From the NCBI GenBank assembly GCA_015487095.1, contig WFQM01000263.1:1-32478 (forward strand): a DNA stretch of 32,478 bases, written 5' to 3'. The notes below the pieces were generated by a model. That model had not been told where the DNA came from. It worked only from the letters and a program-made list of their open reading frames with translations, and made no database searches. Positions 521-17,651 of the stretch are shown one piece after another; the first letter of the stretch is position 1; the number at the start of each line of letters is the position of its first letter. The position numbers and the translations under genes are program-made. This stretch comes from Gammaproteobacteria bacterium (GTDB lineage Bacteria > Pseudomonadota > Gammaproteobacteria > SZUA-152).

Positions 521-557
521 TTGTCTGAAATAATAGTTGCGCTATAGTGCAACTATG
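521..557 (+). promoter_or_regulatory. promoter and ArsR/SmtB-type operator of the metal operon, apparently leaderless
   Basis: A -35 box TTGTCT (521-526) and a -10 box TATAGT (543-548) are separated by 16 bases. An inverted repeat with perfect 8-base arms, ATAGTTGC (533-540) and GCAACTAT (549-556), covers the -10 box and runs into the start codon at 555. The expected transcription start, 6-7 bases after the -10 box, falls on or next to that ATG, and there is no Shine-Dalgarno sequence. The arrangement suits repression by the encoded ArsR-family protein and a leaderless mRNA. Confidence 0.7.
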
Positions 558-959
558 CATCTGGCGCGAATCCCATCTGACACTGTTTTTCAGGCTCTGG
601 CCGATGAAACCCGGCTGCGTATCATCCATTTGTTGGTGGAGACCGGCGAGGAATCCTGTTTGTGTGAGCTGGTGGACAGCTTGCTGGAGCCGTCTTACAA
701 ACTTTCACGTCATCTGAAAATCCTGCGTCAGGCGGGGTTGCTGACATCACAGAAAGAAGGACGCTGGGTTTATCACCGTATGCTTGAAGAGCCTTCTTAC
801 ATAATGCGTTTATACGATGTGGTGCGTGCCTTGCCCGATGCGGATGGTATTTACGCCGCCGATCTCGCGCGGTTCCGTGAGCGCCTGTGCCTGCGCGATG
901 GAGGCCGTTGTCTCGTGGGTATCCAGAGCGAGGAATTTCGTGCGGAGGCGGTCGACTGA
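555..959 (+). CDS. ArsR/SmtB-family metal-responsive repressor
   Basis: This 134-residue winged-helix protein should repress the metal operon and release DNA when metal binds. The N-terminal part (VFQALADETRLRIIHLL) and the recognition helix region (YKLSRHLKILRQAGLL) are typical of the family. A CLC motif (C35, C37) lies in the position of the ArsR/CadC metal-binding cysteines, and C112 and C119 near the C terminus could complete a thiolate site. I chose the ATG at 555 because it agrees with family length and the promoter places the transcript start there; a TTG at 537 lies inside the operator. The stop overlaps the ATPase start (TGATG), implying translational coupling. The ATPase/RND context suggests Cd, Zn, Pb or Co sensing, but the exact ion cannot be read from the sequence. 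Confidence 0.88.
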   Translation: MHLARIPSDTVFQALADETRLRIIHLLVETGEESCLCELVDSLLEPSYKLSRHLKILRQAGLLTSQKEGRWVYHRMLEEPSYIMRLYDVVRALPDADGIYAADLARFRERLCLRDGGRCLVGIQSEEFRAEAVD

Positions 960-2884
960 TGGCCTGCCCAGATTGTGCAACCGTGGCCACCGGTGGCACC
1001 ATGCCGCCACCCTGGCGCAATCCACAGGTGGTGACATCGGCCTTATCCGGGCTGTTGTTGCTGGTGGGTTTCGTGGGCGGCAAGCTGGGCCTGCCAGCAC
1101 CGGTGGCGACGGCCCTTTATATCCTCGCCGTGATTATCGGCGGCTGGTATTTCGGCCGCGAGGCCATCACGGAGCTGGTGCGCGAACGTGAAATTGGCAT
1201 TGAGCTGTTGATGAGCGTGGCGGCCGTGGTGGCCGGGCTTATGGGGCAGTGGGCCGAGGCCGCCATGCTGGTATTTCTCTACTCCATCTCCGAGGCCGCC
1301 GAAGGCTATACCGAGGAGCGCACGCGCAACGCCATTCGCGCCCTCATGGATCTGGCGCCGAAGACCGCCCTGGCGCGGCGCGATGGACAGGAAGTGCGCA
1401 TTCCTGTCGAGGAATTGCGGGTGGGCGATGTGTTCATCGTCTATCCCGGCGAGGCGGTGGCCACCGATGGCGAGATCATCGACGGCCGCTCCAGCCTCAA
1501 CGAAGCGCCGGTCACCGGGGAGTCCGTGCCGGTGGAAAAGACCCTTGGCGACACGGTGTTCGCCGCCACCCTCAATGGCGAGGGTGCGCTGACTGTGCGC
1601 GCTACCAAGACAACGGCAGACAACACCCTGGCGCGCATCATCCAGCTGGTGGAGAAGGCCCAGGCCAGCAAGGGCAAAAGCCAGCGTTTCATCGAACGTT
1701 TCGGCCACCGCTACAGTCCGGTGGTGCTGCTGGTGGGCATCCTGCTCGCCGTCGTGCCTGGCCTGCTGGGCATGGGCTGGGAGGAGTGGCTGACCCGCGC
1801 CACTGTGTTCATCGTCGCCGCCGCCCCCTGTGCGCTGGTGATCTCTATTCCCATCACCCTGGTGGCGGCCATCGGCACCGCCGGGCGCAACGGCATCCTC
1901 ATCAAGGGGGGTGTGCATCTGGAGAATCTGGCCAGGGTGCGCGTGGTGGCGCTGGACAAGACCGGCACCCTGACCCTGGGCCGCCCGCAGGTCACGGACA
2001 TCGTGCCCTTGAACGGCCACGGCGAACGCGACATTCTCACCTCAGCCGCAGCGCTGGAACGGCGCTCTCAGCATCCCCTGGCCCGGGCCGTGCTTGAGCG
2101 GGCGGAAAATGATGGCATTGAGCCGCAGGAAGCCACGGATTTCACCACCCTCACCGGTGCAGGTGCCCAAGGCCGGGTTGGCTACGAAATGCTTTATGTT
2201 GGCAGCCCCCACTTGTTTTCCGAGCTCGGGGCAGACTTCGACGGCGCGCAGCCGCGCATCGAGGCCTTGCAGCGCGAAGGCAAAACCGTGGTGCTGGTGG
2301 GCACGGAAATGGCTTTGCATGGTCTTATCGCTATTGCCGACCCTCTGCGTCCCGAAGCCCGCGAGGCTATTGCCGGTCTCAAACGCGCGGGCATCCACAA
2401 AGTCATCATGCTGACCGGTGATAATCGTCTGGCCGCCGAGGCCATCGCCCGGCAGGCCGGCATCGACAAGGTTTTCGCCGAACTCAAACCGGAGGACAAG
2501 ACACTTAAGGTGGAAGTGTTAACGAAACAGTATGGTCAGGTGGCCATGGTGGGCGACGGTGTCAACGACGCCCCGGCCCTGGCTGCCGCCCACGTCGGCA
2601 TCGCTATGGGCGCGGCCGGTACCGATGTGGCGCTGGAAACGGCGGACGTGGCGCTGATGGGCGACGACCTGTCGAGGTTGCCTTATCTGATTCGCTTCAG
2701 CCGTCGTAACTGGAGTATTATCCGCCAGAACCTGGCCCTGTCTGTGCTGGTGATTGGTAGCCTGATCGTCGGTGCGGTGAGCGGGGTGTTTTCACTGCCG
2801 ATGGCGGTCATTGCTCACGAAGTGAGCGAGTTTGTGGTCATCGCTAGTGGTTTGAGAATGTTGAGGAGTCAGACAGGGGCTTAG
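959..2884 (+). CDS. P1B-type heavy-metal-translocating ATPase (CadA/ZntA-like, APC variant)
   Basis: This 641-residue inner-membrane pump should export a metal cation from the cytoplasm using ATP. It has the actuator motif TGES, the phosphorylation motif DKTGTLT (D333), an HP motif within SQHPLA, TGDN and GDGVNDAPAL. The transport motif in the membrane helix before the phosphorylation site reads APCALV (A289-P290-C291), where classic Zn/Cd/Cu pumps have CPC. The N terminus has only a CPDC motif (C3, C6) and no complete HMA domain. I chose the ATG at 959, which overlaps the repressor stop by one base; an upstream in-frame start at 887 would read through the repressor gene. The divalent ions Zn, Cd, Pb or Co are likely from context, but the altered motif makes specificity uncertain. 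Confidence 0.9.
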   Translation: MACPDCATVATGGTMPPPWRNPQVVTSALSGLLLLVGFVGGKLGLPAPVATALYILAVIIGGWYFGREAITELVREREIGIELLMSVAAVVAGLMGQWAEAAMLVFLYSISEAAEGYTEERTRNAIRALMDLAPKTALARRDGQEVRIPVEELRVGDVFIVYPGEAVATDGEIIDGRSSLNEAPVTGESVPVEKTLGDTVFAATLNGEGALTVRATKTTADNTLARIIQLVEKAQASKGKSQRFIERFGHRYSPVVLLVGILLAVVPGLLGMGWEEWLTRATVFIVAAAPCALVISIPITLVAAIGTAGRNGILIKGGVHLENLARVRVVALDKTGTLTLGRPQVTDIVPLNGHGERDILTSAAALERRSQHPLARAVLERAENDGIEPQEATDFTTLTGAGAQGRVGYEMLYVGSPHLFSELGADFDGAQPRIEALQREGKTVVLVGTEMALHGLIAIADPLRPEAREAIAGLKRAGIHKVIMLTGDNRLAAEAIARQAGIDKVFAELKPEDKTLKVEVLTKQYGQVAMVGDGVNDAPALAAAHVGIAMGAAGTDVALETADVALMGDDLSRLPYLIRFSRRNWSIIRQNLALSVLVIGSLIVGAVSGVFSLPMAVIAHEVSEFVVIASGLRMLRSQTGA

Positions 2885-2898
2885 GGCCTTTTATTGCT

Positions 2899-3195
2899 AT
2901 GCGTCGAATTATCACCCAACTGCTGATTCTCGCCATGCTTGCTACCAACGTGGCATGGGCAGGTGACAACTGTTTTGCCACATCTGTCAGCGACACAGTC
3001 GTGCTGGCGCAGATCGATGTCGAGCAGGACAGTGGCGCATGTGAGGATCTGTGCGTCGGCTGGTTGCACCTGCATTCCATTACCCCGGAAACCGGGCATG
3101 CCGATTTTCCATCCGCCGGTCAGGCTGTCGCCTGGTCGGATATGATTTTCGATTCCCGCGATCAGGAACCCCCTCTTCGACCTCCCCAGATCTAA
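2899..3195 (+). CDS. small secreted Cys-containing protein in the metal operon
   Basis: This 98-residue protein starts with a clear Sec signal peptide (cleavage expected after NVAWA, about residue 21), so the mature protein is probably periplasmic. The mature part has cysteines at CEDLCVGWLHLH, a mixed Cys/His cluster that could bind metal, and ends in a proline-rich tail. It lies 14 bases after the ATPase and 81 bases before czcC on the same strand. Small secreted proteins of unclear function are common just ahead of czc-type efflux genes, and I place it in that group without naming a family. The start has only a weak upstream purine stretch. Confidence 0.65.
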   Translation: MRRIITQLLILAMLATNVAWAGDNCFATSVSDTVVLAQIDVEQDSGACEDLCVGWLHLHSITPETGHADFPSAGQAVAWSDMIFDSRDQEPPLRPPQI

Positions 3196-3276
3196 GTACC
3201 TGCCCGGGACGACGTTGTCCCCCCGTTGTTTGTAAAGCGTGTTCAATGCACGACTATTTTTGGCAAGGACTTATCC

Positions 3277-4506
3277 ATGAAAAACCGATTATTTCTATCC
3301 GCAGCCGTACTCGGCTGTCTGTTGCTGTTGAGCCTCAATGGTGCCAACGCTGCACCTCAACCCGCCTTGGCAGGCTGGGTTGGTACTGTGCTCGACACGA
3401 ATCCACGCGCTCGGGCGGCGCAGTCCGCACTGGACGCGGCCCAGGCACGTGAACGGGCTGCCGACCAGCCGCTCTACAACCCGGAGCTGGGCGTCGAATA
3501 CGAAGACGCCAGCGATGTCACCAAGACCCTGGGGTTAAGTCAGGCCATCGACTTTAGCGACAAGCGAGGCGCCCGCACACGTGTTGCGAGCCTGGAACGT
3601 GAACGCATGGCCGCCGAACTGGCGGGGGTGCGGCAGGAGCTGGCGGCAGAATTGCTGGCGGCGCTGGCGGATTATCACACGACGCATGAATTGCTCACCC
3701 TGGCCGAACAGCGCCGCGCCTTGATGCAGCGCTTTCTGGCGCTGACCGAACAACGTCGTCAAGCCGGTGATCTGGGGCAGGTGGAACTGGACCTGGCCAG
3801 ATTGGCCGCCACCGAGTCCAGTCTGCAATGGGCACGTTTGCGAGGCATGCAGGCTCAGGCCGAGCAGGCTCTGCTGGCCATTGCTGACAGAGACGGGACG
3901 GGTTGGCCGGTGTTGCCGGCCATCCCCGATCTCGCCCGGCTCGACGATGCACAGCTCGATGGCTTGCTGGAGCAACTGCCGGCAATACGTGCCGCCCGTG
4001 CGCAAATGGCCATGGCCCGCGCAGCGGTTGAAGTTTCCCTTCGCCAGCGCCGCGCCGACCCCACTCTCGGCCTGCGTGGTGGCCGCGAGGGTGAGGAAAA
4101 TCTGCTGGGCCTGAGCTTCTCCATTCCGTTGAATCTGCGCAATACCTTCACCGCCGAGGTGGACGTGGCCAACGCCGACGCCATCCAGATTGAGCAGGAT
4201 GCGCAGGATCGTTATCGGCGCAGTCGCGCCCGGCTGGTGGCTACGGCGCAGCGTTTTGAAATAGGCCGCACGGCCTGGGATGACTGGCTGCAAACCGGGC
4301 AGAGCAGCCTGGAGAGTCAGACCCAGTTGCTGGAACGCCTGTGGCGTGCCGGTGAGCTCAGTACTTCCGATTATCTGGTGCAACTCAAGCAGACACTGGA
4401 CACCCGCACCGCCGCCGTCGAGCTGCGCGGCAGCCTGTGGCAGGCGTGGTTCGAATGGCTTGCCGCCAGTGGCAAAACAGAATTCTGGTTGGGGCTGAAG
4501 CCATGA
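3277..4506 (+). CDS. czcC: outer-membrane factor of a heavy-metal RND pump (CzcC family)
   Basis: This 409-residue TolC-like protein should form the outer-membrane exit duct of the tripartite pump with the next two gene products. It has a signal peptide ending near NGANA and long Ala/Glu/Arg/Gln-rich helical repeats typical of the coiled-coil barrel, with a characteristic early stretch NPELGVEYED. The start at 3277 is preceded by an AAGGA at the right distance; a frame extending back to 3226 lacks one and would precede the signal peptide with 17 odd residues. It is followed 32 bases later by the membrane fusion gene. Assignment to the Czc/Cnr/Ncc group rests on the czcCBA order and sequence style. 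Confidence 0.87.
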   Translation: MKNRLFLSAAVLGCLLLLSLNGANAAPQPALAGWVGTVLDTNPRARAAQSALDAAQARERAADQPLYNPELGVEYEDASDVTKTLGLSQAIDFSDKRGARTRVASLERERMAAELAGVRQELAAELLAALADYHTTHELLTLAEQRRALMQRFLALTEQRRQAGDLGQVELDLARLAATESSLQWARLRGMQAQAEQALLAIADRDGTGWPVLPAIPDLARLDDAQLDGLLEQLPAIRAARAQMAMARAAVEVSLRQRRADPTLGLRGGREGEENLLGLSFSIPLNLRNTFTAEVDVANADAIQIEQDAQDRYRRSRARLVATAQRFEIGRTAWDDWLQTGQSSLESQTQLLERLWRAGELSTSDYLVQLKQTLDTRTAAVELRGSLWQAWFEWLAASGKTEFWLGLKP

Positions 4507-4538: not shown

Positions 4539-5642
4539 ATGATGAACACATTACTTAATCGCTTCCTGATTCTCGGCCTGCTGATCAGTCTGCCGGTCTT
4601 TGCCGAGGAAGAGCACGAAGAGGAAGAGGGCGGCATCCCGCCCATGAGTGTCGAGCAGCGCGAGGCCCTGGGGATTCGCACCCAGGTGGTGGGCACGCAT
4701 CTGATGGCAGAAGAGCTGACCGCTCCCGGCGAAGTGACGGTGAACCGCTACCGCACCGCCGAGGTGACACCGCGCATCAGCGCACAGATTACCCGGCGCC
4801 ATGCGCGCATGGGGCAGCAGGTCAAAAAAGGCCAGAAGCTGGTCACGCTCTCCAGCGTCGCCATGGCCGAGGCCCAGGGACAGTTGCTGATTGCCGATCG
4901 TGAATGGCGTCGGGTGCAGAAGCTGGGCCGCAAGGTGGTGTCGGAGAAACGCTACGTGGAGACCCAGGTCTCCCGCCAGCAGGCCTACGCAAAAGTACTG
5001 GCCTTTGGCATGACCGAATCCCAGGCCAAAGCCCTGCTGAAACAGGGTGATGTGTCCAAAGCCACGGGCACCTTCGACCTGCTCAGTTCGCAGGCGGGCA
5101 CGGTGTTGAGTGACAATTTCGTCATCGGCCGGGTGGTGGAACCGGGGCAGGTGCTGATGGAAATCAGTGATGAATCGCGCCTTTGGGTGGAGGCGCAGCT
5201 GGCCGCAGAGGTGGCCAGCCGCATTGCGGTGGGTAGCACCGTGCGGGTCAGCAGTGATGAACGCCGCTGGGTGAAGGGTAAGGTGATACAGATCCACCGT
5301 CTGGTGGACGACACCACCCGCACCCTGGCGGTGCGCATCGAACTGGATTCCGGCAACGCCGGTCTGCGCCCCGGCCAGTTTGTGAAGAGCGCCATTCAGA
5401 TTGCGCCGGGGGCAGCCGTGGTGGCGGTACCCCGGGAGGCGGTGCTGTTGTTGCAGGGCGATTATGTGGTGTTCAAGCCAGTGGGCGAGGAAGTCCACGC
5501 CGTGCCGGTGGAACGCGGGGCAACGCGGGGCAACTGGACCGAAATAAAGGCAGGTCTGGCGGTGGGTGACGAGATCGTGACTCAGGGCGCTTACGTGCTC
5601 AAGTCGCTGTTACTGAAATCTCAGATCGGCGACTCGGATTAA
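4539..5642 (+). CDS. czcB: membrane fusion (periplasmic adaptor) protein of a heavy-metal RND pump (CzcB family)
   Basis: This 367-residue adaptor should link the inner-membrane CzcA-type pump to the outer-membrane factor. A signal peptide (LISLPVFA) is followed by an acidic, His-containing segment (EEEHEEEEGG), which could attract cations. The barrel-sandwich hybrid halves (ISAQITRRHARMGQQVKKGQKL and, later, FDLLSSQAGTVLSDN), the coiled-coil hairpin between them and the beta-barrel (SRLWVEAQL) follow in the usual order. The ATG at 4539 is preceded by a TGGAG motif; a second ATG follows at once. The stop is 12 bases before the pump gene, so the genes are co-transcribed. Confidence 0.9.
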   Translation: MMNTLLNRFLILGLLISLPVFAEEEHEEEEGGIPPMSVEQREALGIRTQVVGTHLMAEELTAPGEVTVNRYRTAEVTPRISAQITRRHARMGQQVKKGQKLVTLSSVAMAEAQGQLLIADREWRRVQKLGRKVVSEKRYVETQVSRQQAYAKVLAFGMTESQAKALLKQGDVSKATGTFDLLSSQAGTVLSDNFVIGRVVEPGQVLMEISDESRLWVEAQLAAEVASRIAVGSTVRVSSDERRWVKGKVIQIHRLVDDTTRTLAVRIELDSGNAGLRPGQFVKSAIQIAPGAAVVAVPREAVLLLQGDYVVFKPVGEEVHAVPVERGATRGNWTEIKAGLAVGDEIVTQGAYVLKSLLLKSQIGDSD

Positions 5643-5654
5643 GGGGGCGAGACA

Positions 5655-8600
5655 ATGTTAAATAATCTGGTTGAAGCATCCTTACGCTATAAATTTCTGG
5701 TGATCGTGGCCTTCGCCGTGGTGGCCTTTCTCGGCTGGCGGGCGGTAACCACGGTGCCCATCGACGCCTTTCCCGACGTCACCCCGGTGCAGGTGAACAT
5801 CTACACCGAGGCGGCGGGTCTGGCGGCCGAAGATGTGGAAGAGCTGCTGACTTTTCCGGTGGAATCGGGCATGGCAGGTCTGCCCGGCGTGCAGCAGATC
5901 CGCTCGGTGAGTCTGTTCGGGCTGTCCTATGTCTCGGTGTATTTTTCTGATGATCTCGATATCTACTTTGCCCGACGGCTGGTAATGGAGCGTTTGCAGG
6001 AAGTGGGGGATCGTTTGCCGGAGGGTTACGGTAAGCCCGAGATGGGGCCCAATACCTCCGGTCTGGGCCAGGTTTTCTGGTACACCGTGGAGCGCGCCGA
6101 CAAGGCTCTGGCCGAGAGTCAATATGAAGCAAAAGGGCAACCGGCCATCAGCAATATGGATCTGCGCAGCCTTCAGGACTGGCAGGTGCGGCTGATGCTG
6201 CGCACCGCACCCGGGGTGGACGACGTGATGTCCTGGGGTGGCGAGGAACGGCAGTTTCAGGTGGTGATCGATCCGCTGAAGCTGATCGAATACGACCTCA
6301 CCTTCCGTGAGGTGATGGAGCTGATCGAGCGTAACAACGGTCAGGTGGGTGGTCAGTACATCAATCAGGGCTCTGAGCAGTATCTGGTACGTGGTCTGGG
6401 GCTGGTGGCGGATGAAACCGACATCGGCAACATCGTGGTCAAGGTGGAAGATGGCATCCCGGTCTATCTTCGCAATGTGGCGACCATCAGCCAGCAACCC
6501 GCGCTGCGCTTTGGTGCCGTGACCCGTGACGGTGAGGAAGTGGTGCTGGGCATGGCTCTGGCGCGCATCGGCGAAAACGCCAAAAACGTCGTCGATGCGG
6601 TGAAGGAGAAATTCGCCGTGGTCGAGTCTGCCTTGCCGGAAGGCGTGGCCCTGCGGCCGGTCTATGATCGCACCGACCTGGTGGACAAGGCCATGAGTAC
6701 TGCGGTGATGGCGCTGGTGGAAGGCTCTATTTTGGTGGCCATCGTGCTATTTCTGTTTCTCGGTGAGATTCGTTCAGCCATCGTGGTGATTTCCGCTTTG
6801 CCGCTTGCCATGCTGATCGCCTTTATTTTCATGGGCGAGATGGGGCTGACGGCGAATCTCATGTCGCTGGCGGGGCTGGCAATCGGTATCGGCATGATGG
6901 TGGATGGTGCCATCGTGATGACGGAAAATGCCTTCCGCATCATGTCCGAGTGGCGGAAAAAAGGTGAAAAGGTCAACCGCAGCGCGGCGGTGTTGGTGGC
7001 GGCTAAGGAGGTGGCAAACCCTATCACCTTCGCCATCATTATCATTATCGTGGTGTTCCTGCCGTTGTTCAGCCTGGAAGGCCTGGAGGGCAAGCTGTTC
7101 AAGCCCATGGCCTTCAATATCAGTTTCGCCATGGCCGGTTCCCTGCTGCTGACGCTGACCATTATCCCGGTACTGGCGGCGCTGATTCTGAAGCCCAAGG
7201 AAGAGCGTGACACGATGCTGGTGCGCTGGCTCAAGCGCGCCTACCTGCCTACTTTAGCCTGGTCGCTGGCGCACAAGCGCACGGTGATGGGGGGCGCCGT
7301 GGCACTGCTGGTGGGCAGCCTGGCCTTATTCCCGCTACTGGGTAAGGAGTTCATGCCGCAGTTGCAGGAGGGCTCCATCATGTGGCGCGTGGTGTCCATC
7401 CCATCGACCTCGCTGGAGCAGTCCATCGAGATCTCCAAGGATGTCTCGCGGGTGCTCACCGCCTTCCCCGAGGTGAAGACCACGGTCGCCATGATCGGCC
7501 GCGCCGAGAAGGGGGAGACCGCCGACGTCAACTACATGGAAATCTACACCGAGCTGAATCCCCACGAGGAATGGCCCGTGGACCGGGAGATGGCGTCACT
7601 GGCGGACGAGATGCGGGAGAAACTGGAAGAGGCCGTGCCGACGTCGGTGATCAGCTTCACCCAGCCTATCCAGATGCGTGTAGAGGAATTAATCTCTGGT
7701 GTGCGAGCGACCCTCGCGGCCAAGCTTTACGGGCCGGACCTGGAAGGACTCGACCGCATCAGCCAACAGGTGAAGAATGCCATCAGCCAGGTGGACGGTG
7801 TGGCAGACCTGTCGCTGGAGGCCAATCTGGGCAAGCCGCAGATTCGTATTCGTGTCAATCGTGAGCAACTGGCTCGCTACGGTATGAATGCCGATGAAGT
7901 GCTGGATGTGGTGCGTGTCGGCATTGGCAACGAGCCGGTCTCCAGCCTCATCGACGGCATCAAGCGTTTCGACATCACCGTGCGTCTTAGTGATGATGCC
8001 AAGCAGTCAGTGGATGCGATTCGCAATATTCCCCTGCGCAGCAGTAATGGCGCGATTGTGCCACTGCACAAGGTGGCCGACGTGTCGGTGAAAGAGGGTT
8101 ATTCCTTCATCCGCCGTGAGCAATTGCAGCGTTATGCGGTCATCCAGATGGATGTGCGTGGCCGCGACGTCGATAGCTTCGTGCAGGATGCCGAGGCGGC
8201 CATCGAGTCGCAGGTAGAGCTTCCGCCGGGCTATTGGATCGAGTGGGGCGGCGCGTTTGAAAATCAGCAGCGGGCCTTGCAGCGCCTGTCCATCATTGTG
8301 CCGCTGACCATCTTCTTCATCTTCGTGTTGCTGTACACGGCGTTTAATTCGATCAAGTACGCCACCCTGATCATTGCCAACGTGCCCTTTGCCACCATCG
8401 GCGGTCTGGTTTCACTGTACATCAGTGGGCAATACCTGTCGGTGCCTTCAGCCATTGGCTTCATCGCCGTATTCGGTGTGGCCATGCTCAACGGTATCGT
8501 GCTGGTGAGTTTCATCAACGAACTGCGGGAGAAAGGCAAGTCCGTCGGCGAGGCGGTGCGCAAGGGTGCGGAGATGCGCCTGCGCCCGGTGATGATGACC

Positions 8601-8774
8601 GCCAGCGTCGCCATCCTCGGCCTGCTGCCCATGTTGCTGTCCAGCGGCGTCGGTGCCGAGACCCAGCGTCCCCTCGCCACCGTGGTGGTGGGTGGACTGA
8701 TCACCTCCACGCTACTGACCTTGCTATTGTTGCCGGTGATCTACGAGTGGATAGAGACACGCAAACAGAAATAA
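5655..8774 (+). CDS. czcA: heavy-metal efflux RND transporter, inner-membrane pump (CzcA family)
   Basis: This 1039-residue proton-driven antiporter should drive metal export through the CzcCB partners. Its length, the N-terminal helix, two large periplasmic loops and two blocks of membrane helices fit the HME-RND family, as does QPIQMRVEELISGVRATLAAK in the second loop. The helix-4 charge motif reads GIGMMVDGAIVMTEN. D417 and E424 match the second aspartate and the glutamate of CzcA, but the first aspartate (DFG in CzcA) is replaced by glycine (G411), as in CusA/SilA-like pumps. The ATG at 5655 follows a GGGGGCGAG ribosome site. The periplasmic loop resembles divalent-ion (Co/Zn/Cd) pumps, so ion specificity remains open. 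Confidence 0.92.
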   Translation: MLNNLVEASLRYKFLVIVAFAVVAFLGWRAVTTVPIDAFPDVTPVQVNIYTEAAGLAAEDVEELLTFPVESGMAGLPGVQQIRSVSLFGLSYVSVYFSDDLDIYFARRLVMERLQEVGDRLPEGYGKPEMGPNTSGLGQVFWYTVERADKALAESQYEAKGQPAISNMDLRSLQDWQVRLMLRTAPGVDDVMSWGGEERQFQVVIDPLKLIEYDLTFREVMELIERNNGQVGGQYINQGSEQYLVRGLGLVADETDIGNIVVKVEDGIPVYLRNVATISQQPALRFGAVTRDGEEVVLGMALARIGENAKNVVDAVKEKFAVVESALPEGVALRPVYDRTDLVDKAMSTAVMALVEGSILVAIVLFLFLGEIRSAIVVISALPLAMLIAFIFMGEMGLTANLMSLAGLAIGIGMMVDGAIVMTENAFRIMSEWRKKGEKVNRSAAVLVAAKEVANPITFAIIIIIVVFLPLFSLEGLEGKLFKPMAFNISFAMAGSLLLTLTIIPVLAALILKPKEERDTMLVRWLKRAYLPTLAWSLAHKRTVMGGAVALLVGSLALFPLLGKEFMPQLQEGSIMWRVVSIPSTSLEQSIEISKDVSRVLTAFPEVKTTVAMIGRAEKGETADVNYMEIYTELNPHEEWPVDREMASLADEMREKLEEAVPTSVISFTQPIQMRVEELISGVRATLAAKLYGPDLEGLDRISQQVKNAISQVDGVADLSLEANLGKPQIRIRVNREQLARYGMNADEVLDVVRVGIGNEPVSSLIDGIKRFDITVRLSDDAKQSVDAIRNIPLRSSNGAIVPLHKVADVSVKEGYSFIRREQLQRYAVIQMDVRGRDVDSFVQDAEAAIESQVELPPGYWIEWGGAFENQQRALQRLSIIVPLTIFFIFVLLYTAFNSIKYATLIIANVPFATIGGLVSLYISGQYLSVPSAIGFIAVFGVAMLNGIVLVSFINELREKGKSVGEAVRKGAEMRLRPVMMTASVAILGLLPMLLSSGVGAETQRPLATVVVGGLITSTLLTLLLLPVIYEWIETRKQK

Positions 8775-8779
8775 CGGAA

Positions 8780-8806
8780 TACCCCCCCTCCAACACTGGG
8801 GGGGTA
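8780..8806 (+). terminator. perfect C/G hairpin between czcA and the PII-like gene
   Basis: TACCCCCCC (8780-8788) and GGGGGGGTA (8798-8806) form a perfect nine-base-pair stem with a nine-base loop, starting six bases after the czcA stop. It is followed by ATCTTTCCC, not a long T tract, so it is a weak or partial terminator, or an mRNA-stabilising structure that lowers expression of the downstream PII-like gene relative to the pump. Confidence 0.6.
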
Positions 8807-8836
8807 ATCTTTCCCAACGTATTCAGGAGAGCGACC

Positions 8837-9163
8837 ATGAAAGAGATCAAAGCCATTATCCACCGTAATCGCGTTGCCGATGTAGTGCATGCGCTGAAAA
8901 GTGCGGGGTTCGGCAACCTGTATATCGCTGACGTCAAGGGCATGCTCAAGGCGCTGGACAACAAGGAACAGAATTATTCCGTCGAACTGGGCGAGGCCGT
9001 TATTACCGAAATCCGCCTGGAGCTGGTGTGCGAAGACGCGCGGGCTGATGAGGCGACCCGCCTGATTCAGGAACAGGCCCGCACAGGCCAACCCGATGCC
9101 GGATGGATTTTTGTCAACGACATCGGACAGGTAATCCGTATTGAAGGTGAGCTGGAAGCTTGA
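8837..9163 (+). CDS. PII-like signalling protein linked to a heavy-metal RND pump (PII-NG type)
   Basis: This 108-residue protein has the PII core. It starts with MKEIKAIIHRNRVADVVHALKSAG; the middle is a loop region (KGMLKALDNKEQNYSVELGEAVITEIRLELVCED), and the C-terminal part TGQPDAGWIFVNDIGQVIRI occupies the place of the classical TGxxGDGKIFV segment. The T-loop is unlike GlnB/GlnK and has no uridylylation-type context, so ordinary nitrogen signalling is unlikely. PII-like genes of this kind are known next to heavy-metal efflux operons; their ligand and role are not settled. A strong ribosome site (CAGGAGA) precedes the ATG. The gene is last in the operon, after the hairpin. Confidence 0.82.
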   Translation: MKEIKAIIHRNRVADVVHALKSAGFGNLYIADVKGMLKALDNKEQNYSVELGEAVITEIRLELVCEDARADEATRLIQEQARTGQPDAGWIFVNDIGQVIRIEGELEA

Positions 9164-11076: not shown

Positions 11077-11112
11077 TTGATATATTTGGATAGGCGTATA
11101 TAATTGGCCTCC
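11077..11112 (+). promoter_or_regulatory. promoter of the arsenic operon repressor, near-leaderless
   Basis: TTGATA (11077-11082) and a perfect TATAAT (11099-11104) are 16 bases apart. The transcription start should fall at about 11111, one or two bases before the arsR ATG at 11113, leaving no room for a Shine-Dalgarno sequence. An AT-rich region precedes it. Confidence 0.7.
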
Positions 11113-11448
11113 ATGAACACTGAATCCCTTGCCGCACTATTTAAAACCCTCTCTGAGCCCGTGCGCTTACGGATTGTTTATCTATTGCTGGAGTCGGGTG
11201 AGCTCTGCGTCTGCGATCTGGTAGAAACATTGGGGCTGTCGCAAAGCGTGGTGTCTCGACATCTTGCCTATCTACGCAATAACGGGTTGGTCTCCACCCG
11301 GCGTGAAGGTGTGTGGGTTCACTATCGTATTGTGGATGCCTGTTGCGAGCCGTTGTTTGAGCATATCCGCCAATGTGGAGCGGATAATGAAGAGATGCAG
11401 ACTGATCTCAAAAAACTGGCAGCAACGGCTCAGCAGAAGTGTGGGTGA
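11113..11448 (+). CDS. arsR: ArsR-family arsenic-responsive repressor
   Basis: This 111-residue winged-helix repressor carries ELCVCDL (C32, C34), the As(III)-binding signature of classical ArsR, just before the recognition helix (LSQSVVSRHLAYLRNNGLVSTRREG). A second Cys pair (VDACCEP) lies further on and may provide another ligand. It should repress the downstream GAPDH-arsJ-acr3 genes until arsenite or a related trivalent species binds. I chose the ATG at 11113; a TTG at 11104 overlaps the -10 box. It is separated from the first enzyme gene by about 120 bases containing a dyad. Confidence 0.9.
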   Translation: MNTESLAALFKTLSEPVRLRIVYLLLESGELCVCDLVETLGLSQSVVSRHLAYLRNNGLVSTRREGVWVHYRIVDACCEPLFEHIRQCGADNEEMQTDLKKLAATAQQKCG

Positions 11449-11532
11449 ATGAGAGACTCTGTTTGCTTAAAGATTGAATTGTGGGCCGAAGCAATCCGGT
11501 TTTTTTAAAGGCCTTTTTTAAACCCCCAATAC

Positions 11533-11548
11533 ATCCGCTTATGCGGAT
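11533..11548 (+). promoter_or_regulatory. dyad upstream of the GAPDH gene (possible ArsR site)
   Basis: ATCCGC-TTAT-GCGGAT is a perfect six-base inverted repeat between arsR and the GAPDH gene, a few bases before the ribosome site TAAGGAG. It could be an operator for ArsR or an RNA hairpin that controls access to the ribosome site. Nearby AAAGGCCTTT is a further short palindrome. Function is inferred from position. Confidence 0.4.
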
Positions 11549-11569
11549 ATGCGGTAAGGAGTGAAAGCA

Positions 11570-12568
11570 ATGATTCGAGTGGGCATTAACGGTTTTGGGC
11601 GCATGGGACGGCTGGGTCTGCGTGCAGGGTGGGATAGGTCGGAATTTCAGGTTATGCGCATCAATGAAACGGCTACCGATGCAGAAGGGTCGGCCCATTT
11701 GCTCAAGTTCGATTCGGTGCACGGTACCTGGTCTCACGACACGGGCGCAGAAAACGGAAATGTCATCATCGGTGACAGGACATTGGCCCACACATCGAAT
11801 GCCGCCATTGGCGATAGCGACTGGTCGGGTTGCGATATTGTGATCGAGACCACGGGTAAACATCACAAAAAGCCGGAAACACTCAATGCCTATTTTGAGC
11901 AGGGTGTGAAGAAGGTGATCGTGGCGGCCCCCACCGAAGGGGCGCTTAATATTGTTTACGGCATCAACGACCACAAGTACGATCCGGCCAGCCATCATCT
12001 GCTGACGGCTGCGTCTTGTACCACCAACTGCCTGGCACCTGTGGTGAAGGTGATGCACGAAAAAGTGGGCATCCTGCACGGTTCCATGACCACCATTCAC
12101 GACATTACCAACACCCAGACCATCGTTGACAAAGGCCACAAGGATCTCCGCCGGGCACGCGCCTGTGGCAATTCGCTTATTCCCACCTCAACCGGGTCGG
12201 CCAAAGCCATTGGCAAAATCTTTCCCGAGCTGGATGGGAAACTCAATGGTCATGCTGTGCGTGTGCCGTTGCTTAATGCGTCATTGACTGATTTTGTCTT
12301 TGAGGCAGCACGCCCGGTCACAGCGGATGAAATCAATGCCTTTTTCAAGGAGGCGGCGGAAGGTGAATTAAACGGCATTCTGGGTTATGAAGAGCGCCCG
12401 CTGGTGTCCGTGGATTACCTCAACGATCCACGTTCTTCCATTATCGACGCCCTTTCCACCCTGGTTATTCATGATACCCAGGTAAAAATTTACGCCTGGT
12501 ATGACAACGAATGGGGCTACGTCAACCGCATGATGGAGCTGGTGGCCAAGGTTGCACGGAGTCTGTAA
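11570..12568 (+). CDS. glyceraldehyde-3-phosphate dehydrogenase of the arsenate-detoxification type
   Basis: This 332-residue protein is a complete GAPDH with the NAD-binding start [20 protein letters not shown], the catalytic motif [10 protein letters not shown] (C150) and the C-terminal motif [12 protein letters not shown]. The position between arsR and arsJ identifies it as the dedicated copy that joins arsenate to glyceraldehyde-3-phosphate, giving 1-arseno-3-phosphoglycerate for export by ArsJ. That role is known for this gene pair and is inferred here from context. The start at 11570 has AAGGAG eight bases upstream; a GTG at 11561 is part of that site. The stop codon is directly adjacent to the arsJ start. 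It is not a general glycolytic copy by context. Confidence 0.9.
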
Positions 12569-13777
12569 ATGCAGACTGAGCTTCGCAATTACCTGTTGAT
12601 CAGTGGCGGTTATTGGGCCTTCACACTCACCGATGGCGCGATCCGCATGCTGGTGGTGCTTTATTTTCACCTGCTGGGTTATTCACCCTTCGAGGTGGCA
12701 ATGCTGTTTTTGTTTTACGAATTTTTCGGCATCGTTACCAACCTGCTGGGGGGATGGCTGGGGGCGCGCATCGGCCTGAATCTCACCATGCACATCGGCA
12801 TGGGCTTACAAGTACTGGCACTGCTCATGCTCACTGTGCCGGAGGCCTGGCTTAATGTGGCTTATGTGATGTTCGCCCAGGCCTTGTCGGGTATTGCCAA
12901 AGACCTGAACAAGATGTCCGCAAAAGCGGGAGTGAAAATGCTGGTGCCCCCCGGCAATGAGGGCAGCGGCTCCCGTCTGTTCAAATGGGTGGCGATGCTC
13001 ACCGGTTCCAAAAACGCCCTGAAGGGAGTCGGCTTTTTCCTGGGTGCGGTCTTGCTGGAATTTGTGGGATTCCGGAGTGCTTTGTTGATACTGGCAGGCG
13101 GTCTGCTGCTGGTATTGATGTTTACCGCGATGGTGTTGCCACGAGGACTGGGCAAACCCAAAGCCAGTCCCAAATTCTCTCATCTCTTTTCCAACACACC
13201 CGCTGTCAACTGGCTTTCAGCGGCGCGATTCTTCCTGTTTGGTGCGCGTGATATCTGGTTTGTGGTGGGCTTACCCGTTTTTCTGTTTTCAGTGCTGGGC
13301 TGGCAATTCAGCGCAGTGGGTGCATTTTTTGCCCTGTGGGTGATTGTGTACGGCATCATCCAGTCCTGTGCACCGATAATACTGCGGGGGCACCACCCTG
13401 GTGGGGCAACTGCGCGGGGGTGGGCCTTTGCTCTGGTATTGATTCCCGTCGCTATCGCACTGGCTTTGCAGCAAGGCATGGAACCAAACCGGGTGATTAT
13501 TATTGGCCTGACTGTTTTTGGTGCGGTATTCGCCATCAACTCAGCGGTGCATTCCTATCTGATTGTTGCCTGGTCTGAGCATGATAAGGTGTCGATGAAT
13601 GTCGGTTTTTATTATATGGCCAATGCCGGTGGACGATTAACCGGTACCGTGTTGTCCGGCTGGATTTACCAGACCCAGGGGCTGGTGGGCTGCCTGTGGT
13701 GGTCAGCGGCCTTTGTGCTGATGGCGGCATTGCTGTCGATACGCCTGCCAGCGGGAAGCAAAGAGGCCTATCAATGA
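12569..13777 (+). CDS. arsJ: ArsJ, organoarsenical (1-arseno-3-phosphoglycerate) exporter, MFS family
   Basis: This 402-residue inner-membrane protein has around 12 hydrophobic segments and the ArsJ-type N terminus (LRNYLLISGGYWAFTLTDGA). The paired GAPDH start and the sequence GIAKDLNKMSAKAGVKMLVP support ArsJ rather than a general MFS drug pump. By known biology, ArsJ removes 1-arseno-3-phosphoglycerate, which would otherwise break down to arsenate and 3-phosphoglycerate. The ATG directly follows the GAPDH stop with no gap. The gene ends in an ATGA overlap with acr3, so translation is coupled along the operon. Confidence 0.9.
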   Translation: MQTELRNYLLISGGYWAFTLTDGAIRMLVVLYFHLLGYSPFEVAMLFLFYEFFGIVTNLLGGWLGARIGLNLTMHIGMGLQVLALLMLTVPEAWLNVAYVMFAQALSGIAKDLNKMSAKAGVKMLVPPGNEGSGSRLFKWVAMLTGSKNALKGVGFFLGAVLLEFVGFRSALLILAGGLLLVLMFTAMVLPRGLGKPKASPKFSHLFSNTPAVNWLSAARFFLFGARDIWFVVGLPVFLFSVLGWQFSAVGAFFALWVIVYGIIQSCAPIILRGHHPGGATARGWAFALVLIPVAIALALQQGMEPNRVIIIGLTVFGAVFAINSAVHSYLIVAWSEHDKVSMNVGFYYMANAGGRLTGTVLSGWIYQTQGLVGCLWWSAAFVLMAALLSIRLPAGSKEAYQ

Positions 13778-14784
13778 GCCAATCACCCACATCTGAAGAT
13801 AGGCACAAACATCATCTTGATCCTCTTACTCGCGGCCTGCCTTTGTGGATCATCGTTGCGATGGGACTGGGGCTCTGGGTAAGTCAGCTTGCGCCTGAGT
13901 TGGGGAAAGCTTTGGAGTGGGGTATTCCGTTGGGGCTGTTTTTAATGATCTATCCGGCCATGACCAAACTGCATCTGGAGGACATCAAAAGCGCGGCGCG
14001 TAATCGTACCGCAACGGCACTGATTCTAGGATTCAACTACATCCTCAACCCGGCCCTGTTATGGTTTTTCGGTTGGCTGTTTCTGCGTGACTATCCGGAA
14101 TTATGGATTGGCCTTATTTTGCTCGGCGTGGCTCCTTGCATCGCCATGGTGCTGGTGTGGACCGATCTGTCGCGCGGAAATAACGCGCTGTCGGTCACCC
14201 TGATGGCCTGGAATAGCCTGATTCAAATCCTCACCACCCCCTTTTTTATCTGGCTGATCATAGGCCAACAGGTCGATGTTGACGTATTGATGATCGCCCA
14301 GAGCGTCTTTTTCTACTTGGGATTGCCGCTGTTCTTCGGTTTTCTGACACGCCAGATTGCGGTACGCAGGAAGGGGGCTGCCTGGTTCGACGGTGCGGTG
14401 CAACCGCGTCTGGATAAACTGCAACTGGCTGCGCTGTTGTTCACCCTGCTGATCATCTATGCCCTGCAAGGCGAGGTCGTACTGGCGCATCCTGAATTTA
14501 TCTGGCGCATGGCGATACCGCTATCACTGTTCTTCGTCACGCTGTACGGCATCGTGTTCTTTCTTTCCCGTGCTGCGGGGCAGAATTACGAAAACAGCAC
14601 CGCCATTGCCTTTAATGCAACAGGGCGAAACTTTGAGCTGGCGATTGCTCTTGCGATTACCGCCTTCGCCGCCCAACCGCTGGTGGGTGTCTCGACCGCT
14701 ATTGGTCCATTGATCGAAGTGCCTTTGATGCTTGCCATTGTCTGGTGGAGCAAGCGCATGGCGGTGAGGCTTCGGTGGAGTTGA
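13774..14784 (+). CDS. acr3: Acr3-family arsenite efflux permease
   Basis: This 336-residue membrane protein has about ten hydrophobic segments and Acr3 signatures: GVAPCIAMVLVW with the conserved Cys (C122) and AFNATGRNFELAIAL with the conserved Glu (E288). It exports arsenite, the product of arsenate reduction, using the proton gradient. The ATG at 13774 overlaps the arsJ stop (ATGA); a start at 13696 would lie inside arsJ. The N terminus is His-rich (DRHKHHLD). No arsC reductase is in the window, so arsenite must come from uptake or from an unlinked reductase. A transposon-like element begins directly after the stop. Confidence 0.9.
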   Translation: MSQSPTSEDRHKHHLDPLTRGLPLWIIVAMGLGLWVSQLAPELGKALEWGIPLGLFLMIYPAMTKLHLEDIKSAARNRTATALILGFNYILNPALLWFFGWLFLRDYPELWIGLILLGVAPCIAMVLVWTDLSRGNNALSVTLMAWNSLIQILTTPFFIWLIIGQQVDVDVLMIAQSVFFYLGLPLFFGFLTRQIAVRRKGAAWFDGAVQPRLDKLQLAALLFTLLIIYALQGEVVLAHPEFIWRMAIPLSLFFVTLYGIVFFLSRAAGQNYENSTAIAFNATGRNFELAIALAITAFAAQPLVGVSTAIGPLIEVPLMLAIVWWSKRMAVRLRWS

Positions 14785-14785
14785 T

Positions 14786-14970
14786 ATCATCCTAAATTAA
14801 TCAGTTGAGCCTACTGCGAACGTCTAATGCACTCAATCTAAATGACTTTTTCGAACATTTTGAACTCACCGTATGGGGGATACGCTTTCATTCAAAATAA
14901 CCGAAAAAGTCATTGATCTTGAGCACCTTAGCCGCTCTCGCGACGGCTCAACTGATTAATTTAGGATCAT
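14786..14970. mobile_element. MITE-like non-autonomous element with perfect 21-bp inverted ends and 5-bp target duplication
   Basis: The element 14791-14965 (175 bp) is bounded by perfect 21-base inverted repeats at 14791-14811 and 14945-14965, beginning CCTAAATTAA. It is flanked on both sides by the direct repeat ATCAT (14786-14790, 14966-14970), which fits a target-site duplication. There is no coding frame. Inside are further nested inverted repeats: AATGACTTTTTCG (14841-14853) with CGAAAAAGTCATT (14902-14914), and ATTTTGAA (14857-14864) with TTCAAAAT (14891-14898), so the whole element can fold into one long hairpin. It begins within two bases of the acr3 stop. I do not recognise its parent insertion sequence. 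Confidence 0.8.
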
Positions 14971-15144
14971 CGTTTTTGTTTTGCAGACGTGTTTCAGCTA
15001 AAGGTCAGCCGTTCTGGCAGATCGAGCATTTCCACCATTTTCAACTCCCGTAAAAAAGCCGAATTAACGCTTGACTCCGTTGTGTGGTACAGACTCTAGA
15101 ATCAACACATTATTAACCCTATTCCGGCAATAGAGGAGCAATCG
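14971..15144. other. leader and intergenic region before merT
   Basis: Apart from the mer promoter this region holds no gene. On the minus strand a short frame ending at about 15000 reads RELKMVEMLDLPERLTFS, which could be the tail of a lost gene (for instance a divergent gene removed by rearrangement), but it is too short to assign. No merR is present. A ribosome site AGAGGAG precedes merT. Confidence 0.35.
15071..15102 (+). promoter_or_regulatory. MerR-type promoter of the mer operon
   Basis: TTGACT (15071-15076) and TAGAAT (15097-15102) are separated by a long 20-base spacer (19 if the hexamer is shifted by one). The spacer holds a MerR-like dyad: CTCCGT followed by GTACAGAC, matching the start of the Tn501 mer operator (TTGACTCCGTAC) very closely. 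This points to control by a MerR activator, yet no merR lies beside it. Confidence 0.75.
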
Positions 15145-15555
15145 ATGGACACTTCAGAGACATCTGTACCGACAGTAGATGCGTCAGGAGAAACCGGCGA
15201 GAAAGAGAACCAGGGTCTCTCAAAAGGTACCCTGATCGGCAGCATCATTGCGGGCATTGCTGCCTCCACCTGTTGCATCGGGCCTTTGGTATTGCTGACC
15301 CTGGGCGTTAGCGGCTCATGGATTGGCAATCTCAGCGCCATGGAACCCTTCCGACCCTATCTTATCGGTGTGACGCTGATATTGCTGGGCCTGGCATTTC
15401 GTAAACTGTATCTGGTCCCTCAAGCCTGTGCCGTGGACGCACCGTGTTCTACGTCATCAAATCTGCGCAAACAGCGCATCACTTTCTGGATCGTTAGCGT
15501 GTTTGTGCTGATCGTCATGAGCTTCCCTTGGTATGGGCCCTATTTGTTGGACTAA
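15145..15555 (+). CDS. merT: mercuric transport protein MerT
   Basis: This 136-residue inner-membrane protein should take Hg(II) from MerP and pass it to the cytoplasmic reductase. The first membrane helix has the essential pair STCCIGP (C43, C44), and a second pair lies in the cytoplasmic loop (C95, C101 in QACAVDAPC). Three hydrophobic helices are visible, as usual for MerT. It has a longer hydrophilic N terminus (about 28 residues) than Tn21/Tn501 MerT. It starts after AGAGGAG and is followed 65 bases later by merP. Confidence 0.9.
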   Translation: MDTSETSVPTVDASGETGEKENQGLSKGTLIGSIIAGIAASTCCIGPLVLLTLGVSGSWIGNLSAMEPFRPYLIGVTLILLGLAFRKLYLVPQACAVDAPCSTSSNLRKQRITFWIVSVFVLIVMSFPWYGPYLLD

Positions 15556-15620
15556 CAGAAATTGAATTTTGTTTTTCGTTTGTTGACTGCATTTTTATAA
15601 AAACCAAGGAGTACAAAGCA

Positions 15621-15932
15621 ATGCGTAAATTATTTTTGGTATTGGGTCTGTGTTTGTCTGTACTTGGCATCGCTATGGTGACTTCAACGGCATCCCTGGC
15701 AGGTGAGTTAAAAACCATCACCCTGTCTGTGGACAAAATGACCTGCAACATGTGCCCCATTACGGTGAAAAAGGCTTTAAGAAAAGTGGAAGGAGTGAGT
15801 GAAGTCAGCGCCAAATATGAAGGCGATGGTGTGGGTTGGGCAAAGATCACCTATGACCCATCCAAAGTTAAAGTGGAAGACCTTACCTTTGCCACCGAGC
15901 AGGCCGGTTACCCTTCCAGGCTTCAGCAATGA
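15621..15932 (+). CDS. merP: periplasmic mercury-binding protein MerP
   Basis: This 103-residue protein has a signal peptide (STASLA) and one HMA domain with MTCNMC (C42, C45). It should bind Hg(II) in the periplasm and deliver it to MerT. The start at 15621 has AAGGAG nine bases upstream; a longer frame back to 15528 is an out-of-context extension overlapping merT. It overlaps the merA start by four bases (ATGA). Confidence 0.92.
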   Translation: MRKLFLVLGLCLSVLGIAMVTSTASLAGELKTITLSVDKMTCNMCPITVKKALRKVEGVSEVSAKYEGDGVGWAKITYDPSKVKVEDLTFATEQAGYPSRLQQ

Positions 15933-17365
15933 GCTATTGCAGTGGAAACGAAAGTAAGTCCGGGGATGGCAGTCAACACATAGCCATCGTTGGCACTGGC
16001 TCTGGCGCTTTTGCTGCGGCAATAAAAGCAGTCGAACGAGGTGCCCGCGTTACCATTATCGAAGGTGGTGACATGATTGGTGGCACCTGTGTAAATATCG
16101 GTTGTGTACCGTCAAAGATATTTATTCGCGGTGCCCACATTGCTCACCTGCAAGGCCATCATGTCGTCGATGGACTGCCACTGAACACTCCCGTCATTGA
16201 CCGCAAGGCAATGGTGGCTCAACAACAGGGCTGGGTCGAAAAACTGCGTTACGCAAAATACGAAAGTATTCTGGAAAGTAATCCCGGCATCACGCTGTTA
16301 CGCGGCATGGCTCGCTTTGAGAATGCTTCCACGTTGATCGTGACCCAGGCGAATGGCATGGAAACCACGTTACAGCCTGATCGTATTCTACTGGCCGTCG
16401 GTGCGAGTGCATCGATCCCGAAAACGGCAGGACTGATTGATACGCCTTTTTGGACCTCAACAGAGGCGCTGGTTGCGGAAGAACTGCCCAAACATTTAAT
16501 CGTATTGGGTGGCTCGGTGATAGCACTTGAACTGGCACAGGCCTTCCGCCATTTGGGTACTGAAGTGACGGTGGTCGCACGCAGCACACTGTTATCAAAA
16601 GAAGACCTGGAAATTGGCGAAGGGTTGAAGCAAGCTTTCGAAGGAGAAGGCATTCGTGTGTTAACCGACACCCAAGTAGACAGTGTGATGTTCCTGTTGG
16701 GTGAATTTAAATTAGAAACAAATCAGGGACTCATCACTGGCGATCAATTACTCGTCGCCACTGGCCGTCAACCGAATACCGAAGCGCTGGACCTGGACAA
16801 AGCCGGAGTAAAAACGGACAAACGTAGCGGCATCATTATCGATGACCACATGCGAACCAATGTCGAGAACATTTACGCCGCTGGTGATTGCACGAATCAA
16901 CCACAGTTCGTCTACGTTGCAGCTGCTGCCGGCACACGTGCCGCCCGCAACATGACGGGCGACGATGTAGCCATTGATTTGTCCGTCATGCCTGCTGTGG
17001 TATTCACCAATCCACAAGTGGCTAGCGTGGGCTTAACGGTACAACAAGCCGAAGCGCAAGACATGGTTGTCGATAGCCGAACCCTGGATCTCGAAAACGT
17101 GCCGCGTGCTATCGCTAATATGGATACCCGCGGCCTCATAAAACTGGTTGCCGAAAAAGACAGTGGTCACATTGTGGGCTGCCAGGTGCTGGCGGCTGAA
17201 GGCGGTGAAATTATTCAAACGGCGGCATTAGCTATCCGCAACCGTATGACCATCCGGGATTTGGCAGATCAATTATTCCCTTATCTCACCATGGTGGAAG
17301 GATTGAAACTGACGGCACAAACCTTCAACAGGGATGTGAAACAACTTTCTTGTTGTGCCGGTTAA
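15929..17365 (+). CDS. merA: mercuric reductase MerA without an N-terminal HMA domain
   Basis: This 478-residue flavoprotein reduces Hg(II) to volatile Hg(0) with NADPH. The FAD site (IAIVGTGSGAFAAAIKA), the redox-active pair GGTCVNIGCVPSK (C54, C59), the NAD(P)-binding region (LIVLGGSVIALELAQAF), the second FAD segment (NIYAAGDC) and the C-terminal vicinal pair SCCAG (C475, C476) are all present. It lacks the NmerA heavy-metal domain of Tn501-type enzymes, so it receives mercury directly or via thiols. The short N-terminal lead (MSYCSGNESKSGDG) has one Cys. It overlaps merP by four bases and is followed after four bases by a merD-like gene. Confidence 0.95.
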   Translation: MSYCSGNESKSGDGSQHIAIVGTGSGAFAAAIKAVERGARVTIIEGGDMIGGTCVNIGCVPSKIFIRGAHIAHLQGHHVVDGLPLNTPVIDRKAMVAQQQGWVEKLRYAKYESILESNPGITLLRGMARFENASTLIVTQANGMETTLQPDRILLAVGASASIPKTAGLIDTPFWTSTEALVAEELPKHLIVLGGSVIALELAQAFRHLGTEVTVVARSTLLSKEDLEIGEGLKQAFEGEGIRVLTDTQVDSVMFLLGEFKLETNQGLITGDQLLVATGRQPNTEALDLDKAGVKTDKRSGIIIDDHMRTNVENIYAAGDCTNQPQFVYVAAAAGTRAARNMTGDDVAIDLSVMPAVVFTNPQVASVGLTVQQAEAQDMVVDSRTLDLENVPRAIANMDTRGLIKLVAEKDSGHIVGCQVLAAEGGEIIQTAALAIRNRMTIRDLADQLFPYLTMVEGLKLTAQTFNRDVKQLSCCAG

Positions 17366-17369
17366 TTTT

Positions 17370-17651
17370 ATGAACGCATATACCATTTCCAAGCTGGCCG
17401 AAGACGCGAGTGTTAGTTTCGGTATCGTGCGCAATTATCAAATGCGCGGCATGTTGCAGCCTTGTGAATGCACAGATTGTGGTTATGGTATTTACGATGA
17501 ATCAGCATTATCACGCCTGCGTTTTATTCGGGCTGGCAAGAAAGCAAAAATTTCACTTAACGATTTTGAAATTCTATGCAAAACACTGGATGAACAGGAT
17601 AAGGAATGCATTCCTCTGGCAAGCATCAACGATAAAGTCAGCACTAAATGA
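17370..17651 (+). CDS. merD: MerD-like regulator, shortened
   Basis: This 93-residue protein begins MNAYTISKLAEDASVSFGIVRNYQMRG (in part), matching the MerR-type helix-turn-helix of MerD. The segment CECTDCGYGIYDESALSRLRFIRAG follows the MerD pattern but has three cysteines. It ends soon after the region LCKTLDEQ, about 28 residues shorter than MerD of Tn501, lacking most of the C-terminal dimer helix. MerD removes MerR from the mer operator and so turns the operon down. The start at 17370 lies four bases after merA; the upstream GTG frame at 17355 overlaps merA. Confidence 0.8.
   Translation: MNAYTISKLAEDASVSFGIVRNYQMRGMLQPCECTDCGYGIYDESALSRLRFIRAGKKAKISLNDFEILCKTLDEQDKECIPLASINDKVSTK

Follow-up and report, generated by a model that had tools for sequence, protein, structure and literature searches.

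The PII-family gene that follows the heavy-metal efflux operon in the window (the whole analysed stretch of 32,478 nucleotides, contig WFQM01000263.1 of a Gammaproteobacterium) belongs to a clade that has kept the PII fold and the T-loop, while the residues that hold nucleotide and 2-oxoglutarate in canonical PII proteins have been replaced. The members of this clade probably do not read ATP or 2-oxoglutarate, and they may read metal. The loss of the site was absent from the preliminary description of this locus, and it is the main point that the present analysis adds. With the fold and the T-loop kept and the nucleotide site dropped, such proteins would either signal metal or serve the pump without any ligand.

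Our preferred reading, which we hold tentatively and at somewhat less than even chances, is that the window PII docks on CzcA, does not read nucleotides and is possibly gated by metal, and that a hairpin in front of its gene sets its output. The gene would be the last cistron of an arsR-ATPase-czcCBA operon, with a product that acts for the pump and has no part in nitrogen control. The protein would form the usual PII homotrimer, the T-loops of which would dock on the CzcA trimer from the cytoplasmic side, like those of GlnK on AmtB. Little is known of how heavy-metal RND pumps are controlled once they are made, and what the metal-linked PII proteins do is still guesswork; the recurring hairpin offers a further point of attack, on the amount of regulator relative to pump.

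The PII gene and its linkage to czcA

The genes of the putative operon are as follows:

537..959, + strand: ArsR/SmtB-type metalloregulator (NF033788, 77.7 bits)
887..2884, + strand: heavy-metal P-type ATPase, start codon uncertain (TIGR01525, 616 bits)
2899-3195, + strand: ORF of 98 aa before czcC, without a Pfam or NCBIfam match
3274..4506, + strand: czcC, outer-membrane factor (Pfam OEP)
4542..5642, + strand: czcB, periplasmic adaptor (TIGR01730, above the cut-off)
5655..8774, + strand: czcA, heavy-metal RND permease of the CusA/CzcA family (TIGR00914, 1094 bits)
8837..9163, + strand: PII-family protein of 108 aa (Pfam P-II, AlphaFold2 model, PDB fold matches, residue table)

They stand in an operon-like order (arsR, P-type ATPase, the 98-aa ORF, czcC, czcB, czcA, PII), and the ArsR/SmtB-type protein is likely to be the regulator of the operon. 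The PII-like gene is real, as observed earlier. Its coding sequence starts with the ATG at 8837, preceded by CAGGAG, which is the start common to the relatives; a longer ORF that opens with the GTG at 8747 was rejected, as it covers the end of czcA and the hairpin. The product scores 54.6 bits with Pfam P-II (PF00543), for which the cut-off is 25, and this is its sole Pfam match at E 0.001, a level at which neither PF11582 (DUF3240) nor CutA was found. The AlphaFold2 monomer has a pLDDT of 92.9, and its best match among PII structures is GlnZ (Z 15.8, 90 residues, rmsd 0.9). Thus, the preliminary description was right about the PII fold and about the position of the gene after that of the RND pump, the stop codon of which is at 8774. 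Its remark that no nitrogen genes lie nearby agrees with the neighbours that were scanned, which are metal-resistance genes. Public annotation names genes of this type "P-II family nitrogen regulator"; a nitrogen role for the window PII was rejected, as a GlnB with a canonical T-loop is encoded elsewhere in the genome (L002).

The linkage with czcA was assessed in a set of 87 PII loci, comprising the window, 80 named loci and six further ones; L001, L006 and L008 denote the window, and L009, L010 and L011 (duplicates of L019, L020 and L022) as well as the partial L018 were left out of all counts. In 78 of the 87, the PII gene is preceded by a czcA in the same orientation that ends no more than 1.5 kb away. 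Among the other nine, the sequence of L015 begins 104 bases before the PII gene, and those bases resemble the end of czcA, while L045 and L064 have czcB before the PII gene and czcA behind it. When the pump was taken as the starting point, a close CzcA (E at most 1e-290) was found in 34 of the 369 genomes of the class, 30 of which gave loci; at least 300 nt of downstream sequence were present in 26 of the 30, and 22 of these 26 czcA orthologues are followed by a PII gene, the exceptions being L122 (with 303 bases of downstream sequence), L138, L144 and L146.

The CzcA partners of the window clade form one subfamily, with a mean identity of 0.78 among themselves, while their identity to the partners of the other PII type described below does not exceed 0.48, and all 24 of them carry the TM4 motif in the form A-G-GMM-DGA-VM-EN. 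The classical divalent pumps have a different motif, DFG-DGA-VEN, according to an excerpt of PMC3637150, and for this reason the motif does not tell the metal of the window pump, the nearest solved relative of which is ZneA. Distances between the PII proteins and between their CzcA partners are correlated (Mantel r 0.81 for 24 pairs, with none of 2000 permutations as high). Linkage and correlation, both drawn from sequence comparison, show co-inheritance and not contact. The earlier proposal that the PII protein is a candidate signalling partner of the efflux system is thus well supported as linkage, the association being strong from the side of the PII loci as well as from that of the czcA orthologues; as a mechanism it is unproven, and contact and signalling are conjectural parts of it.

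The ligand site and the T-loop

Alignment of the 87 proteins with canonical PII splits them into two sets. The GDG-type set (n = 70) has GDG in all 70, Lys90 in 63, Arg103 in 66 and Lys or Arg at position 58 in 66. The second set (n = 17), which includes the window, has GDG and Arg103 in none, and Trp90 and Glu58 in 16 each. A search of the class matched PII in 27 of 369 genomes and gave 19 further loci, all of which fall in the second set and bring it to 36 members, henceforth the window clade; L100 and L101 are counted in it despite a C-terminal GDG, the sorting being done by position 88. In this clade Leu37 and Ala or Ser88 are present in all 36, His9 and Glu58 in 35 each, Trp90 in 34, Asp41 in 33 and Cys65 in 30, and position 101 varies, with Arg in 9 of 36. 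The window PII itself has His9, Ala39, Asp41, Glu58, Ala88, Trp90 and Glu103, with Leu51 in place of Tyr51, and retains Thr83, Gly84, Gly89 and Arg101. In a tree of 102 rows, built on few columns, with some long branches and with six near-copies dropped from the 70 GDG-type rows, the 36 members make up one side of a long-stemmed branch with support of 100/98.

The roles of the altered positions are known from GlnK. Excerpts of PMC8395244 on the methanogen protein give Thr29', residues 38-39, Gly87, Lys90, Val64', Arg101' and Arg103' as contacts of ATP, and Arg9, Lys58 and the backbone of Gln39 and Gly41 as those of 2-oxoglutarate; the change K58N by itself abolishes the binding of 2-oxoglutarate and weakens that of ADP, as stated in a passage of PMC6908673. 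Judged by these roles, the window PII lacks a good part of the hold on the phosphates (Lys90, Arg103), the ligand of Mg (Gln39 to Ala) and both carboxylate clamps. Weak binding of nucleotides could nonetheless persist, given that Arg101 and Thr83 are kept. The other 70 czcA-linked PII proteins keep the site, and because of this the ancestral role of PII beside czcA was probably nucleotide sensing. It could be argued on the same grounds, and from the retention of Thr83, Gly84, Gly89 and Arg101, that the window PII still binds ADP or ATP in an altered way and couples the pump to the energy charge; with Asp88, Lys90, Arg103, Gln39 and Lys58 all gone, we regard such an energy sensor as unlikely.

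As for the trigger, we suggest a metal ion, with less assurance than for the docking, because the carboxylate-clamping pair Arg9/Lys58 became His9/Glu58, with Asp41 at the base of the loop. His and Glu can bind divalent metals; binding at His9/Glu58 is a guess from sequence and chemistry, and one row of the window clade is without His9 and another without Glu58. A broader scenario, which we consider rather doubtful, is that the whole clade became a metal sensor by charge reversal of the pocket (Arg9/Lys58 to His9/Glu58, Lys90 to Trp) and gates its cognate RND pump from the cytoplasm, with its dose set by a hairpin that arose repeatedly at the junction of czcA and the PII gene.

The T-loop lies in the following region:

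8872..9004, + strand: T-loop region of the PII protein, with the adjoining beta strand (alignment, conservation, pLDDT)

Residues 36-56 correspond to 8942-9004. The window PII reads GMLKALDNKEQNYSVELGEAVITE at this place and differs there from the genome's own GlnB; the alignment reveals no GlnK-like match, in keeping with the atypical T-loop noted earlier. After removal of rows more than 95% identical, the mean pairwise identity of the T-loop in the window clade is 0.56 versus 0.57 for the rest of the protein (34 rows), compared with 0.35 versus 0.61 in the GDG-type set (67 rows), and the AlphaFold2 pLDDT of the block 41-50 is 88 in the window PII versus 66 in a Geobacter-type protein. Such conservation fits a single conserved partner.

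A conserved T-loop next to a dismantled site, with Trp90 in place of Lys, would also be expected of a constitutive, ligand-free subunit that assists the CzcA trimer or its assembly and has gained no new ligand site for the one it lost; the overlap of the PII start with the czcA stop in many relatives, which suggests equal output of the two proteins, points in the same direction. We find this explanation somewhat improbable, as it leaves the conservation of His9, Asp41 and Glu58 at the former site to be accounted for in some other way. The protein could also be a cytosolic metal buffer or chaperone that, like CutA, makes no contact with the pump: the operon is one of metal resistance, and His9 (35 of 36) and Cys65 (30 of 36) are conserved. 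The conserved T-loop and the tight linkage to one CzcA subfamily, however, suggest a protein partner, and a free buffer of this kind has in our opinion little chance of being correct.

The intercistronic hairpin

The spacer between the two genes is 62 nt long and contains the perfect 9-base-pair hairpin that the preliminary description had placed there:

8780..8806, + strand: hairpin with nine perfect pairs, between the czcA stop and the ribosome site of the PII gene (sequence)

Its sequence is TACCCCCCC-TCCAACACT-GGGGGGGTA, the middle part forming the loop of nine bases. The 3.6-Mb genome has no second occurrence of the pattern TACCCCCC-N8..14-GGGGGGTA. The minimum free energy of the spacer is -23.9 kcal/mol, and none of 200 shuffles folds as low. 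Rfam has no known element here at the gathering threshold.

In general, czcA and the PII gene overlap or stand close together, or else they are set well apart, in which case a hairpin is mostly present. A perfect Watson-Crick stem of at least 8 bp is present in 21 of the 35 czcA-PII spacers of 45-130 nt, compared with 12 of 90 control spacers, i.e. other codirectional spacers of the same loci, delimited by a simple ORF caller (Fisher p 4e-7 in the 87-locus set, with kinship ignored). The wider control was taken because the czcB-czcA spacers alone, with such a stem in 1 of 7, were too few. Outside the nearest relatives the stem is found in 14 of 27 spacers. It begins 5-13 nt past the czcA stop in 17 of the 21 cases and ends 22-33 nt ahead of the start codon in 18. 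A separate survey of the window clade covered 38 loci, including two plasmid members, with czcA in reach in 34. The gap is at most 20 nt and without a hairpin in 16 of these 34, so the hairpin is not required; it is 40-160 nt in 15, and 12 of these 15 have at least seven pairs and a fold matched by at most 5% of shuffles. The exceptions are L013 with an interrupted stem, L107 with a long hairpin missed by the rule and L100 with a long spacer and no stem.

The stem is kept while its letters change, as judged from the stems of the relatives, from Shewanella sp. ANA-3, where a perfect stem of 13 bp with an unrelated sequence precedes the window-type PII gene, and from RNAalifold, which for eight near spacers gave eight paired columns, two of them changed on both sides, with a small covariation term and with pair counts that are rough, as the alignments leave some stems out of register. 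A recurring stem with varied letters points to an RNA element rather than a protein operator. Sites of CsoR/RcnR-type repressors are G/C-rich palindromes, and the shape of the window palindrome is the one feature that would speak for a DNA operator of this type. We rejected this highly improbable candidate, since the letters of the palindrome are not conserved across the orthologous loci, which keep only the stem, and no promoter-like site was found adjacent to it.

The hairpin might also be an intrinsic terminator of the czc transcript, with the PII gene read from a promoter of its own. The terminator search indeed gave one hit here, with the tail TAATCTTTCC (chance mean 0.6), and 7 of the 21 stems in the relatives are accompanied by at least five T in eight. 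However, the T-run of the window is weak, which makes its stem a weak terminator at best, no sigma-70-like promoter was found on the + strand in 8600-8837, and in other relatives the PII gene overlaps czcA; complete separation of the two transcription units is therefore improbable in our view. According to the reading that we prefer, the hairpin would act in the mRNA directly past the czcA stop codon and uncouple the translation of PII from that of czcA, and it would set the output of PII either by partial termination or by protection of the upstream 3' end. Tuning of the PII level, as suggested earlier, is plausible because the hairpin is a recurring feature of the RNA.

Related systems and the surroundings of the operon

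A group of PII proteins linked with metal transport genes is already known, as stated in part of PMC4285133. The pairing of PII with czcABC is not new; it is known as PII-NG, e.g. GSU2134 of Geobacter sulfurreducens, a PII-family gene in a czcABC operon like that of the window, and the preliminary description was correct in treating PII-like proteins near heavy-metal pumps as known. Excerpts of PMC7726332 describe the G. sulfurreducens PII-NG-czcABC operon as up-regulated with cobalt and down-regulated with excess iron, and argue the role of the metal-linked PII from structure and context only. The linkage to czcABC-type metal transport genes that characterizes PII-NG is the one found here at 78 of 87 loci. 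However, the nucleotide signature, GDG and K/R-I-R, is intact in the Geobacter-type proteins that we collected and has been lost from the window clade. PII-NG proteins are reportedly without canonical PROSITE signatures, according to the abstract of Sant'Anna et al. (2009). In the literature searched, we found neither the dismantled site of the window clade nor the czcA-PII hairpin described, although that work may cover a part of this. PII beside czcA was not encountered in the portions of the literature on Nitrosococcus, Bacteroides, Geobacter comparative genomics and Azospirillum/Caulobacter pumps that were covered, nor in excerpts of PMC8218464.

GlnK and GlnB with AmtB share with the window PII the fold, the gene adjoining that of a membrane transporter and the expected docking by the T-loop. 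On the other hand, the window transporter is an RND exporter, the T-loop is unlike that of GlnK, and Tyr51, Lys58, Lys90 and Arg103 of the canonical proteins are absent, the site Q39, K58, D88, K90, R103 being replaced by A39, E58, A88, W90, E103. As regards the PII-like proteins of the DUF3240 family, another PII-like gene likewise follows another CzcA in the same genome (L007), but the window PII has no PF11582 match. CutA1, which shares the PII-like fold and the link to metal (part of PMC7726332), differs similarly, the window PII having no CutA match in Pfam. The hairpin resembles known intercistronic stem-loops and weak terminators in its place just past a stop codon and before the next ribosome site, and differs from them in that stems with unrelated letters recur at one gene junction across several phyla.

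Two further PII-like proteins are encoded near other CzcA-type pumps of the same genome (L007, 1501-1803; L005, 207-512, - strand), the former of which matches both DUF3240 and P-II, so that three distinct pairings of a PII-like protein with a pump coexist in one genome. On a plasmid of Rhodanobacter thiooxydans (L148, 7422-8378), the PII gene shares 4 bases with czcA, and a gene for a cation diffusion facilitator comes after it; in Thiogranum (L027, upstream of 1463) an unrelated coding stretch separates czcA from PII, with a gap of 746 nt. The 98-aa ORF before czcC is also present in L019, with 72% identity. Metal ATPases usually have CPC; the P-type ATPase of the window reads APCALVIS at this place and HEVSE near its end. 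The operon is part of a larger metal-resistance island, which at 11104-17651 contains arsR, an ArsJ-associated GAPDH gene, arsJ and an ACR3-like gene, followed by merT-, merP-, merA- and merD-like genes. At 51-252 on the - strand, there is a match of 111.8 bits to RF02001, a group II intron domain family, and it may be that a mobile element borders the metal-resistance island.
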